Of a stretch of DNA of 30,580 nt, positions 1,053 to 25,405 are shown in pieces. Source of the DNA: a virus; IMG/VR virus record IMGVR_UViG_3300048008_000233, positions 1 through 30,580 of that record, one strand, 5' to 3'. The stretch's first letter is position 1. Each line of letters begins with the position of its first letter. The notes below the pieces were generated by a model. The model searched no databases, was not told where the DNA came from, and worked only from the letters and a program-made list of their open reading frames with translations. Both the position numbers and the translations under genes were made by a program.

Positions 1053-1085
1053 GTAGCTTTCCCCAAAAACACGTAATTATAATAG
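1053..1085 (+). promoter_or_regulatory. Rightward promoter motif, copy 1 (orphan)
   Basis: GTAGCTTT at 1053-1060, a 17-bp spacer ending in CACGTAAT, then TATAAT at 1078-1083. It aligns without gaps to the motifs at 3135, 10190 and 25312. Unlike those, it has no rightward gene after it and points against the leftward genes, so it may drive a non-coding transcript starting near 1090. Confidence 0.5.
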
Positions 1086-1089
1086 TATT

Positions 1090-1180
1090 TATAAAAAACT
1101 CTAGTTATTAGTGTAACTTCATTAGTATAGTTCAATTATAGTACACTACTAATAGAGAGTGTCTTCACTCTACTATCTTA
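1090..1180 (+). ncRNA. Candidate structured small RNA
   Basis: Downstream of the orphan rightward promoter motif. TATTAGTGTA (1106-1115) can pair with TACAC...TAATA (1142-1154) around a 3-nt bulge. Alternatively ATTAGTA (1121-1127) can pair with TACTAAT (1147-1153). A hairpin AGAGTG-TCTT-CACTCT follows at 1156-1171. No convincing ORF is seen on either strand. No intrinsic terminator is visible, so the 3' end is a guess. The RNA itself is inferred from the motif and the pairing only. Confidence 0.25.
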
Positions 1181-1242
1181 AGTTTTAAACAACTATACTT
1201 TAGTTTATTACTTAAATTACTCTAATGGGATCTACTTCTTCG

Positions 1243-3134: not shown

Positions 3135-3169
3135 GTAGCTTTTCTAAAAAACGCGTAATGATATATAAT
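3135..3169 (+). promoter_or_regulatory. Rightward promoter motif, copy 2
   Basis: GTAGCTTT at 3135-3142, a 17-bp spacer ending in ACGCGTAAT, then GATATATAAT. It aligns without gaps to the copies at 1053, 10190 and 25312. It lies 25 bp upstream of the first rightward gene (ATG 3194) and is therefore the likely promoter of the fibre gene block. Confidence 0.65.
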
Positions 3170-9842: not shown

Positions 9843-10193
9843 ATGATTACTTACGAATGGAATTGCAAAACAGTTGACTGCTATGTTGAAACAGAGGGAG
9901 AATCTGATGTAGTGTATAATGTGCATTGGATTGTTACTGGAGTTTCAGATACATTAAACCCACAAGGGGATCCTTACACGTCAACTAGCATTGGAACACA
10001 AGAATTAAAAATTGATGATATTACAAACTTTATACCTTTTGATCAACTTACAAACGATGAGGTAGCAGCGTGGACTAAAAGCACAATGGGAGATGAACAA
10101 GTAACATATATTGAAGCAGATATCGCGTCAGCTATTGAGTTACTTATAAACCCAGTTTCTGTTACTTTACAAGTTGGGGCCGATAATCTGTAG
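9843..10193 (+). CDS. Conserved virion-associated protein, DUF7936-like, 116 aa
   Basis: The N-terminal half is beta-rich (YEWNCKTVDCYVETEGESDV, then VYNVHWIVTGVSD). It is followed by FIPFDQLTNDEVAAW and an amphipathic helix to the end. The order 'short strands, FIPF-x-x-L-T-x-E/D-x-x-x-x-W' is familiar from small proteins encoded near tail genes in cyanophages and other marine phages (DUF7936 type); their exact role is unknown. It is the last gene of the fibre block. Its 3' end nearly abuts the promoter motif at 10190 in front of groEL. Confidence 0.55.
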   Translation: MITYEWNCKTVDCYVETEGESDVVYNVHWIVTGVSDTLNPQGDPYTSTSIGTQELKIDDITNFIPFDQLTNDEVAAWTKSTMGDEQVTYIEADIASAIELLINPVSVTLQVGADNL

Positions 10194-10222
10194 CTTTATA
10201 AAATTACGCGTAATTATATAAT
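10190..10222 (+). promoter_or_regulatory. Rightward promoter motif, copy 3 (groEL)
   Basis: GTAGCTTT at 10190-10197 overlaps the TAG stop of the upstream gene. A 17-bp spacer ending in ACGCGTAAT follows, then TATATAAT. It shares all invariant positions with the copies at 1053, 3135 and 25312. The -10-like box ends only 15 nt before the groEL ATG, so the leader would be very short. Confidence 0.65.
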
Positions 10223-10235
10223 AAAATCTAATTTA

Positions 10236-11771
10236 ATGAATCAAATAGTAAAAGAATTTCACTTCGGAACTGAGGGGAAAGAAAAACTGTTTAAAGGTAT
10301 TGACACTTTAGCAGGAGCCGTAGCTTCTACATTAGGGGCAGGCGGAGAAACGGTAATTTTTGAAGATAATGCGGGGGTGCCTGTAATAACAAAAGATGGT
10401 GTAACAGTTGCTAACTTGTGTATCATGGAAGATCCTGTAGAGAATATGGGTGCATCTATGGTTAAGCAAGCAGCACAAAGAACAGTGCAAGATGCAGGAG
10501 ATGGGACAACTACCGCTACGGTATTAACACATTCTTTATTGCATGCTTTAGTTGACAACAAAGATATAAACAAAAGAGAAGTAGCAGAAGCTATAAATAC
10601 AGTAGTAGGCAAAGTTACTACGTATTTAGATAAGGTAAGTAAAGTGGTTGACGATTCAATGATTGAAGAAGTGGCCACTATATCTACTAATAATGACGTT
10701 GAGCTAGGCAAGTTGATTGCTGACGCTTATAGAGCAGTGGATTTAACCGGTATAGTTATGATGGAAACATCAAAGACTGGTGAAACAGGTTTAGAGGTTG
10801 TTGAGGGAGTTCAGTATGACAAAGGATTTATCAATAACCATTTTGTAAACAATCAAACAAATAATTCTTGCGAACAAGAAAACCCTTTAATACTTCTGAT
10901 CGATTCTCAAGTAGATACAGTAAGACAAATACAAACTGTACTCGAGCACGTTATAAAAAACAAAAGATCATTCCTAATCATAGGGGACGTCGACCCGAAA
11001 GTGGCAGCGACTTTAGCTATGAACAAGAATAAAGGTAATATTGATATTAACATCGTTCCAGCACCTACACATGGTGTAAATAGAAAAGAGATGTTTGACG
11101 ATTTAGCATTATTAACAGGTGCAACAGTTATAAGTGAAAACTTAGGAGACGATTTAGATTTAATTGATCTTGATCATTTAGGTACTTGCACAAAAGCTAC
11201 TTCGACATTTGCGGATACAGTTATACAAATTAATAACGATGCTGCTGAACGAGTTACAAAAATCGTAACAAACTTAAAAGAAAAGCTAAGTAACGAAACA
11301 AATCCTAACAGAGTAGTTAAGATTGAAAAGAGATTAGCTATGTTATCCGCTAAGGTTGCAATAGTGCAAGTTGGTGGTAATTCAGATATAGAATTAAAAG
11401 AAAAGAGAGATCGTGTAGAAGATGCAATATGTGCAACTAAAGCAGCGATTAAAGAAGGTGTTGTTGCAGGCGGAGGTGTTGCATTAGCTCAAGCTACTGT
11501 AAAGATTAAAACTAAGACACAAGCCGAAAAAATTGTTATGGAAGCGCTTATTGCTCCTTACAGAATTATATTACAGAATGCAGGACTATTAGTTGATATT
11601 GTAGATCGTAAAGATTGGGGTATTGACGCAAGAACAGGCAAAGCAGTAAATATGTTTAAAGCTGGTATTATAGATCCAGTGCTTGTTACAAAGTCAGCAT
11701 TAAGGAATGCAGCGTCAGTAGCTTCAACTATATTGTCTACTAACTGCATAATGTCTAATCTAAGAGCGTAA
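10236..11771 (+). CDS. groEL: Phage chaperonin GroEL (Cpn60), 511 aa
   Basis: A full-length group I chaperonin: a ring-forming ATPase that folds proteins in a closed cavity with GroES. The nucleotide-site motifs are intact: TKDGVTVA with Asp54, GDGTTTATVL (88-97), VED with Asp396 (equivalent to E. coli D52, D87 and D398), AGGGVAL (411-417), and the C-terminal GIDARTGK and AGIIDPVLVTKSALRNAASV. It lacks the GGM-rich tail and is about 37 residues shorter than E. coli GroEL. In the apical domain, by-eye alignment shows changes at substrate/GroES-binding positions: L234 to Gln233, L259 to Ala257, V263 to Ala261 and Y203 to His202, while F204 and L237 are kept. It is followed one base later by groES and preceded by its own promoter motif. 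It probably serves phage capsid or tail protein folding. Confidence 0.95.
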   Translation: MNQIVKEFHFGTEGKEKLFKGIDTLAGAVASTLGAGGETVIFEDNAGVPVITKDGVTVANLCIMEDPVENMGASMVKQAAQRTVQDAGDGTTTATVLTHSLLHALVDNKDINKREVAEAINTVVGKVTTYLDKVSKVVDDSMIEEVATISTNNDVELGKLIADAYRAVDLTGIVMMETSKTGETGLEVVEGVQYDKGFINNHFVNNQTNNSCEQENPLILLIDSQVDTVRQIQTVLEHVIKNKRSFLIIGDVDPKVAATLAMNKNKGNIDINIVPAPTHGVNRKEMFDDLALLTGATVISENLGDDLDLIDLDHLGTCTKATSTFADTVIQINNDAAERVTKIVTNLKEKLSNETNPNRVVKIEKRLAMLSAKVAIVQVGGNSDIELKEKRDRVEDAICATKAAIKEGVVAGGGVALAQATVKIKTKTQAEKIVMEALIAPYRIILQNAGLLVDIVDRKDWGIDARTGKAVNMFKAGIIDPVLVTKSALRNAASVASTILSTNCIMSNLRA

Positions 11772-11772
11772 T

Positions 11773-12033
11773 ATGAAAGCAATAGGATATAACATATTAA
11801 TCAATAAAAAAAAAGAAGGTATCAAGGCTACTAAAGGTGGCCTGTTACTTTCAGAGAGTCAAAGGCAAGATATAAGATACGTTAAAGCAAAGATACAATC
11901 AGTTGGTGATCTTTGTGCAGGTTTAAACGCAGGAGATGAAGTTTATTACGATAGGCACGCAGGTCACAGGATAGAAGTTGACGGTGATGATTATCAAGTT
12001 ATCAAGATGCAAGATGTAGTATTTGTTTTATGA
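11773..12033 (+). CDS. groES: Phage co-chaperonin GroES (Cpn10), 86 aa
   Basis: The lid of the chaperonin cavity. It shows the Cpn10 beta-barrel pattern: a first strand (KAIGYNILINKK), a mobile loop (about 15-31, with GGLLLS in place of the bacterial GGIVL tripeptide region), then KAKIQSVG, AGDEVYYDRHAG, and the terminal DDYQVIKMQDVVFVL. It is about 10 residues shorter than E. coli GroES. The order EL then ES is the reverse of bacterial groESL operons. It starts one base after the groEL stop, so the two are surely made together. It is unlike T4 gp31, which works with the host GroEL; here the phage brings both partners. Confidence 0.9.
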   Translation: MKAIGYNILINKKKEGIKATKGGLLLSESQRQDIRYVKAKIQSVGDLCAGLNAGDEVYYDRHAGHRIEVDGDDYQVIKMQDVVFVL

Positions 12034-13082: not shown

Positions 13083-13256
13083 ATGAAAAACGGAAACACA
13101 GGAGCATCAGCATTATGGGACGGGCCATTAAATATGGAAGGTAGACCAACCGCTAAAGGCAATTCGCGTAATCACATGGAAATATCAAAAGCTCATTGCG
13201 GCTGCGGTATGGAACCAGGTAAACCTATTACTCAGTGTGCTAAAGAGGGTTATTAA
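13083..13256 (+). CDS. Small Cys-containing protein, 57 aa
   Basis: ORF from ATG 13083 (MKNGNTGASALWDGPLNMEG...) to TAA 13254-13256, overlapping the next start as TAATG. It has HCGCGMEPG and a later ITQCAK, a cluster of one His and three Cys that could hold a metal ion. An opposite-strand ORF (12842-13162) is a shadow. The dense packing and coupled stop/start support a real gene. Function unknown; it sits directly before the endolysin. Confidence 0.6.
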   Translation: MKNGNTGASALWDGPLNMEGRPTAKGNSRNHMEISKAHCGCGMEPGKPITQCAKEGY

Positions 13257-13642
13257 TGAAGTTAACCAATAACTTTAATAAATCAGAATTTGAATGTAAA
13301 TGCGGTTGTGAGATGCCTGCCGATGTACTTATAGAAGTAACTAAGCTAGCTAGTCAATTACAATATATTAGGGATTTTGTAAGAAAGCCTATTAAATTAA
13401 CAAACGCATACAGATGTCCTGAGCACAATAAAGAGGTTGGTGGGGTTTCAAACTCTCAGCATATTTTAGGTAAAGCTGCTGATATTCAAATAAACGATTT
13501 AGATCCGTCTGAGGTTTACAAAACCATAGATAACTTAACTGAGCACGGACATATATTACAAGGAGGTCTCGGCAAGTATAACACATTTACTCACTACGAT
13601 ATAAGAAAGACTAGAGCCCGTTGGGATAAAACATTAGAATGA
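13256..13642 (+). CDS. M15-family peptidoglycan peptidase (endolysin), 128 aa
   Basis: A single-domain Peptidase M15A-type zinc peptidase that cuts peptide cross-links of peptidoglycan. The fold order is intact: FNKSEFECKCG (an N-terminal pattern common in phage M15 enzymes), LTNAYRCPEHNK, SQHILGKAADI with His69 and Asp76, and FTHYDIRK with His113. These supply the zinc ligands (His69, Asp76, His113); the usual 'FVHVD' is FTHYD here. There is no signal peptide or cell-wall-binding domain, so it needs a holin for release; a holin candidate lies at 14205. Overlap TAATG with the upstream gene fixes the start. Confidence 0.9.
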   Translation: MKLTNNFNKSEFECKCGCEMPADVLIEVTKLASQLQYIRDFVRKPIKLTNAYRCPEHNKEVGGVSNSQHILGKAADIQINDLDPSEVYKTIDNLTEHGHILQGGLGKYNTFTHYDIRKTRARWDKTLE

Positions 13643-16089: not shown

Positions 16090-16314
16090 ATGAATATTAT
16101 AAGGAAAATAAGTATCGGGGCTGACTATAAGAACGAAGCAATGCATTACTCTGTTAATCAGAAAGTTTACGGCGGCCACGAAATTTCTCATATAATCTTT
16201 GAAGAAACCGATAAGTCTTATAATATATTCATAACAAAAAACAACGAGAGCATGCCATGGAAGAAATTTAATTCTAACATGGCTATCTCCGTTGAGTATG
16301 ACTTAGAGTACTAA
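16090..16314 (+). CDS. Conserved small protein, 74 aa
   Basis: Begins MNIIRKISIGADYKNEAMHY. An upstream in-frame GTG at 16084 overlaps the preceding stop; I prefer the ATG at 16090 because every other start here is ATG with an A-rich leader. The protein is a mix of strands with 'RKISIG-x-DYK-x-AMHY' and 'MPWKKFNSNM-A-[IV]-S-[IV]-E-Y', a pattern seen upstream of terminase genes of marine phages, role unknown. The stop overlaps the next start (TAATG at 16312-16316). Confidence 0.65.
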   Translation: MNIIRKISIGADYKNEAMHYSVNQKVYGGHEISHIIFEETDKSYNIFITKNNESMPWKKFNSNMAISVEYDLEY

Positions 16315-16919
16315 TGAGAAGCATATACGATTTTATCGTTGAGCCTCTCGGCGAAAGATATGATAATACAGCGAAGGTTGGTGAAGTGAACCTTATAACA
16401 AACACTTCTATAGAGAGTTGGAAACACGTAAACAAGTATGCAAGAGTCTTAGAGACTCCAGTTGGCATTCACACACCTATAAAGAAAGGTGATACTATAG
16501 TCGTGCATCAGAACGTGTTTCGTACTTTTTATGATATGAAGGGAAAAAAGAAGAACTCGCGTTCATTCTTAGAAGATAATAAGTTTTTATGTGCGGTAGA
16601 TCAAATATATTTATACAAAACGCACGGACCTTGGAAAGCATTAGGCGATAGATGTTTTGTAGCTCCAATTGTCAATACAGACGATTTTAGCTTAGATAAA
16701 ACAGAAGCCCTTGTTGGAATACTCAAAATAGATAATAGCTCCTTAAACGAGCTTAAAATGAGTACAGGCGATACAATAGGATTTACACCAAACAGCGAAT
16801 GGGAATTTGTTGTTGATAATCAGCTAATGTACTGCATGAGGACAAAAGATATTGTAATTAAATATGAGCACAAACAAAACCAAAAAGAGTATAATAGAAG
16901 CTGGGCGAGCGGCTGTTGA
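16314..16919 (+). CDS. Double GroES-like (Cpn10-fold) protein, 201 aa
   Basis: Two halves have the same order of landmarks. Half 1 (about 1-95): IYDFIVEPLGERY, then ARVLETPVG, then IKKGDTIVVHQNVF. Half 2 (about 105-190): WKALGDRCFVAPI, VGILKID, then STGDTIGFTPNSEWEF and the YCMRTKDIVI end. 'F-[IV]-x-P-L-G-[ED]-R', a variable loop and 'K-G-D-x-[IV]' are Cpn10 barrel traits, so this looks like a fused pair of co-chaperonin barrels. The typical mobile-loop GGIVL is not evident. It is distinct from the GroES at 11773. It sits just before the terminase genes. The function is unknown. Confidence 0.55.
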   Translation: MRSIYDFIVEPLGERYDNTAKVGEVNLITNTSIESWKHVNKYARVLETPVGIHTPIKKGDTIVVHQNVFRTFYDMKGKKKNSRSFLEDNKFLCAVDQIYLYKTHGPWKALGDRCFVAPIVNTDDFSLDKTEALVGILKIDNSSLNELKMSTGDTIGFTPNSEWEFVVDNQLMYCMRTKDIVIKYEHKQNQKEYNRSWASGC

Positions 16920-25311: not shown

Positions 25312-25344
25312 GTAGTTTTTTATAAAACTATGTAATTATAATAA
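25312..25344 (+). promoter_or_regulatory. Rightward promoter motif, copy 4
   Basis: GTAGTTTT at 25312-25319, a 17-bp spacer ending in ATGTAAT, then TATAAT at 25337-25342. It aligns without gaps to the copies at 1053, 3135 and 10190, and box spacing is identical. It precedes a strong hairpin and the connector gene at 25406. Confidence 0.6.
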
Positions 25345-25352
25345 GTAGACTA

Positions 25353-25386
25353 TATTAACCGGATTCGTAACTGAGTCCGGTTAATA
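25353..25386 (+). other. 14-bp hairpin at the predicted 5' end of the connector mRNA
   Basis: TATTAACCGGATTC pairs with GAGTCCGGTTAATA (one G-U pair) around the hexaloop GTAACT. It starts about 10 nt after the -10 box of promoter copy 4, so it would begin the mRNA. There is no U-tract, so a 5' stabilising structure or regulator site is more likely than an intrinsic terminator. Confidence 0.6.
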
Positions 25387-25405
25387 ATATATAAAACAAA
25401 ATATA

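Follow-up and report, generated by a model that had tools for sequence, protein, structure and literature searches.

The late-type promoter copy at positions 1053-1081 (+ strand) of the window, which is the whole 30.6 kb virus record IMGVR_UViG_3300048008_000233 (30,580 nt), precedes a conserved, structured and non-coding element. We read this element as a phage-encoded small RNA gene, expressed late and probably acting in trans, and consider this reading to have about an even chance of being right. It builds on a promoter match, non-coding conservation and two covarying helices, all obtained by sequence comparison, and is in line with the original prediction that the region holds a candidate regulatory RNA. 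We infer that the late-promoter copy would start a rightward transcript of the plus strand at about 1085-1090, and that its body of about 150 nt would fold into an outer helix (P1), a hairpin with a tetraloop or triloop (P3) and another hairpin towards the 3′ end. The conserved part ends beside the stop codon of a convergent small gene; the RNA itself would end near 1237 and, in the late stage of infection, would act in trans by pairing with an mRNA of the phage or the host.

The rightward genes of the window encode tail proteins, GroEL, GroES-like proteins, an M15 endolysin, a holin, terminase, portal and virion proteins, and small leftward genes occupy positions 1-2820. The best match of the terminase (737 aa) is a spring podovirus (63%), followed by Flavobacterium, Cellulophaga, Tenacibaculum and Maribacter phages. 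This podovirus thus has relatives that infect flavobacteria, and its own host is likely to be flavobacterial as well. The phage carries GroEL together with two GroES-like proteins (10236-12033 and 16314-16919), and GroEL is served by a late promoter of its own. Upstream of small leftward genes lies a repeated leftward element, TTGCAGACG...AGATAATATA (1474-1567, 2032-2125, 2830-2923 and about 915-975; direct-repeat families D1/D8/D9, the copy at 915-975 being identified by eye), which is probably an early promoter. A strong hairpin (GAAGCTATAAGCCTACTTTTTAGTAGACTTAGCTTC, 1640-1685), also present in the related phage L041, lies directly past the stop of the leftward gene 1656-1973 and is followed by a T run on neither strand.

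A late-type promoter with no gene behind it

In the window, direct-repeat family D2 occurs four times (at 1052, 3134, 10189 and 25311), and a collection-wide pattern scan found the corresponding motif, GTAGYTTT-N12-YGTAATTATA, in many related contigs, mostly before a late-type gene. A position weight matrix (PWM) trained on 23 sites from other loci, a few of them from unrelated genomes, picks exactly four sites in the window, with a next-best score of 9.2 bits and a null maximum of 11.4. Three of these, all on the plus strand, precede the first late operon (3135-3163, ORF 3194, 37.2 bits), the GroEL gene (10190-10218, ORF 10236, 39.1 bits) and a virion structural gene (25312-25340, ORF 25406, 37.4 bits), with the ATG at +59, +46 and +94 nt, respectively. 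The fourth, at 1053-1081, consists of GTAGCTTT (-33 region)-N12-CGTAATTATA (-7 region) and scores 32.2 bits. It had been judged as good as the others; it is indeed one of the four real sites, but the weakest of them (32.2 vs 37-39 bits). No rightward ORF follows it among the ORFs of the window, as had been noted before.

The assignment of these promoters to a late class comes from the genes that the shared motif precedes. The flavobacterial host -7 consensus is TAnnTTTG (PMC9723704). The phage -7 motif, GTAATTATA, does not fit this consensus, the flavobacterial host itself being deduced, and since the two are unlike, the late promoter is likely to be phage-directed. Neither the late motif nor the covariance model described below gave a match in the first 50 kb of the elemoviruses MT497017 and MW202828, and scanning genome contigs for the site returned unrelated sites only. 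Within this phage group, the motif GTAGYTTT-N12-YGTAATTATA can serve as an annotation tool.

The leader of gene 25406 contains, behind its late promoter, a hairpin of the AACCGG...CCGGTT type (25345-25395), which is kept in related contigs with compensatory changes, e.g., GACCGG/CCGGTT and TAGCCGGC/GCCGGTTA. We also considered a leftward, protein-like ORF that covers the 1053 promoter (925-1107) and rejected it as a gene: its first usual start codon is an internal ATG at 1020, it runs across the apparent early promoter of gene 619-903, and the frame is not conserved in L003, L004 and L038.

Conservation and folding of the RNA body

Downstream of the promoter, the conserved RNA body extends over about 1085-1237 (+ strand; both ends are approximate, and the start is deduced). 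A covariance model (R1), built on seven sequences, scores 144.8 bits in the window and 104-151 bits in ten other IMG/VR phages; searching whole records with R1 gave two additional homologues (122 and 104 bits), and pattern scans combined with R1 gave two further ones (114 and 105 bits). The module of about 150 nt is present at 11 homologous loci including the window, i.e., in at least ten related phages, which represent only about four independent sequence groups. Its sequences fall into three types: A (window, L004 and L038), B (L003, L008 and L037) and C (L049, L138, L139, L144 and L146). A promoter copy lies upstream of the RNA body in all 11 homologues, whatever their type, and in the first three relatives the alignment with the window runs from the promoter to about 1237. 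Motif and hairpin are both kept in the relatives that carry the locus, the loss of both having been named at the outset as an argument against the RNA; some close relatives (L041, L042 and L050) are without the module. Across the 11 loci, identity drops steeply rightward beyond about 1250; leftward it remains moderate, since the stretch as far as the divergent early promoter shows some conservation of its own. In every homologous RNA, each of the six frames is interrupted by stops (at most 27 codons stay open), and we conclude from these reading frames that the element is non-coding. Weak R1 matches in L140-L143 (15-20 bits) were not accepted, and matches of L148-L153 to the hairpin and 5′ patterns were chance hits in unrelated contigs.

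Folded as a single sequence, the RNA is moderately better than shuffled versions (z -2.2, 5/200), and comparison of the homologues yields a more specific structure. The outer helix P1 joins AAAACU (1095-1100) to AGUUUU (1181-1186); it is paired in 100% of alignment cells, with one pair compensatory in five sequences. Hairpin P3 (1152-1176, one bulged base) is paired in 94% of cells, and three of its pairs are changed on both sides. In the window, its core is AGAGTG(TCTT)CACTCT (1156-1171, loop at 1162-1165), and the loop is a tetraloop or a triloop among the homologues. A 3′ hairpin, P4 (1197-1218; 79% of cells paired, two pairs changed on both sides), is less certain. In the MAFFT alignment A3, P1 and P3 line up in each of the seven sequences, three pairs being changed on both sides, and shifting the partners by one to three columns lowers pairing from 91% to 36-50%. 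The 11-sequence alignment A5 has six pairs with changes on both sides; having been fitted to R1, it is biased in favour of P1 and P3. Of all column pairs scanned, five were fully paired, doubly changed and within a helix, three of them belonging to P1 and P3, compared with a mean of 0.7 after column shuffling (1 in 1000 shuffles reached five). The comparison thus supports P1 and P3 as covarying helices, and the TCTT-loop hairpin that had been predicted is present, strengthened by its homologues and enclosed by an additional outer helix.

The original prediction had also described two mutually exclusive stems and proposed covariation as a check of the hairpins. Both stems exist in the window (within 1109-1153): TAGTGTA (1109-1115) can pair with TACACTA (1142-1148), and ATTAGTA (1121-1127) with TACTAAT (1147-1153), so that they share 1147-1148. 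They are confined to type A and are not conserved beyond it; of the predicted hairpins, it is the TCTT hairpin (P3) that covaries. Inner stems of this kind (P2) were rejected as established helices, their register shifting between types. The sequence AGUGUA (1110-1115 in the window) is invariant in all 11 RNAs, and each of them also contains a complementary UACACU, whose position differs by type: ahead of P3, overlapping with P3 or P1, or downstream of P1. Alternative pairing of AGUGUA may therefore be general, with a partner that moves.

The consensus fold is strong on either strand (z -5.4 to -6.2), and since the minus strand folds equally well, the strand is not given by the fold alone. The locus might accordingly be a minus-strand or DNA element, i.e., the 3′ structure or terminator of a leftward gene, a binding site or an origin, with an incidental promoter match. 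Besides the fold, a T run after P1 on the minus strand in types A and B and the abundance of inverted repeats would suit this explanation. The T run is missing in type C, the promoter is conserved at all 11 loci, and the GC skew of the window becomes positive near 2.4-3.0 kb, away from the RNA locus. Moreover, G-U outnumber A-C cells five to zero on the plus strand, which together with the promoter favours transcription of that strand, and we regard the minus-strand explanation as very unlikely.

Pairing partners and known RNAs

RNAduplex was used to pair the RNA with every translation start predicted in the window. The best start was that of the endolysin gene (13256-13642, + strand), at -37.3 kcal/mol, compared with -25.9 for the second best, and none of 440 shuffled RNAs reached -37.3 kcal/mol at any start. 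In the predicted duplex, positions 1114-1127 of the RNA pair with 13251-13264 through 14 contiguous pairs, one of them G-U, which cover the AUG. A lysis gene as the top candidate, with its start codon inside the duplex, raises the possibility of a lysis timer, in which a late small RNA made together with the capsid genes would restrain translation of the endolysin mRNA in type A, the other types having drifted to other lysis or host targets. If this were true, a late small RNA of a lytic phage would set the time of lysis. L004 is identical to the window at the pairing site, and the two therefore count as a single observation. No pairing signal of this type was seen in L038, which has another endolysin, or in the type B and C phages, and no target conserved across the types was found. 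Because types B and C do not keep the pairing, it stays a lead, and we consider endolysin control by the RNA distinctly unlikely. As the pairing is not conserved across types, it is more cautious to regard the RNA as a trans-acting regulator whose targets are type-specific or belong to the host.

Conservation of the structure and of the boxes AGUGUA and AGUGAGAUCC, but not of targets, would also be expected of a protein-binding RNA, whose fold would serve a protein of the phage or host as scaffold or decoy (e.g., the ribosome, RNA polymerase or the small protein encoded next to the RNA), base pairing being irrelevant. The family of the convergent gene 1243-1470 adjoins the RNA at all 11 loci, which fits the last of these partners, but L050 has a gene of this family and lacks the RNA, and the element matches neither 6S RNA, phage pRNA nor any other Rfam family. 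Protein binding as the sole function is in our estimate unlikely, and pairing in trans is the function we keep for the proposed small RNA.

In Rfam 15, which includes 6S RNA and phage pRNA, nothing matched at the gathering score, and relaxing to E values of up to 10 gave chance-level, unrelated matches only; no tRNA was found. The phi29 packaging RNA is likewise structured, comes from a podovirus and is of similar length, but the present element has no Rfam match, and the window terminase (737 aa) is of another type. Like the element, 6S RNA is a structured RNA (150-200 nt), and a polymerase decoy could, as an idea only, benefit a phage late in infection, but here too an Rfam match is lacking. 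A closer likeness is found in the lytic Pseudomonas phage PAK_P3, whose sRNA1 and sRNA2 are intergenic, about 100 nt long and strongly expressed late, with unknown function and presumed base pairing (PMC4933390). These are small non-coding phage RNAs of the same kind, from another phage group and host; their expression was measured, while that of the element is deduced, and what the element has in turn is a defined late promoter together with covariation among 11 phages. The band C and D RNAs of phage T4, stable small RNAs of a virulent phage for which PMC4933390, in citing them, gives no known function, resemble the element in kind only, being set beside it by description and not by sequence.

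The small RNAs of virulent phages described so far are few; those named in PMC4933390 were of unknown function according to that paper, and a literature search turned up no RNA of this type for flavophages. Judged from its sequence, the element belongs in kind to the late phage small RNAs, but is a separate family absent from Rfam 15. With its defined late promoter, its covarying helices and eleven natural variants of three types, this conserved family would be open to tests of expression, structure and target given one cultured host-phage pair.

The convergent gene and the edges of the module

As judged from tblastn and the stop codon positions, a small gene (1243-1470, - strand) stands tail-to-tail with the RNA at all 11 loci; its family has no Pfam or PHROG match. 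In the 10 homologues where it could be placed, the stop codon of this neighbour lies at RNA position 133-171, so that the RNA overlaps its last codons at most and in some homologues no coding sequence at all. This bears on the proposal, made in the original prediction, that the RNA shuts off early leftward expression as an antisense transcript. In its fullest form, the transcript would run rightward through the leftward early genes for a late shut-off, and the structured part would be a leader. The promoter does point into 1243-2820, and the 3′ end of the RNA shows no evident intrinsic terminator. Against this, the conserved RNA ends by the stop codon of the neighbour, leaving no conserved overlap with the coding sequence for cis-antisense control of 1243-1470, identity falls away just beyond, and a leader could do without conservation of its fold. 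The proposal is not borne out by the comparison, and we consider antisense control quite unlikely; the small RNA acting in trans is retained.

Left flanks and forms of the neighbour gene vary in their combination with the RNA types, which suggests that the module has recombined as a unit. L050 has the neighbour gene without the RNA, and L041 and L042 have neither, with a 79-aa gene in their place. In L003, L037 and L038, the neighbour protein ends in GETCRNGKEW(N/D)RCNCC, which is also the C-terminus of the unrelated 79-aa early protein of L041; this suggests that recombination has taken place at the boundary of the RNA module. The three RNA-less phages have another inverted-repeat element between early genes: GTGACAATAGC...GCTATCGTCGCAC in L041 (5461-5510, minus strand), with counterparts in similar places in L042 and L050, the arms being altered in L050 and still able to pair.
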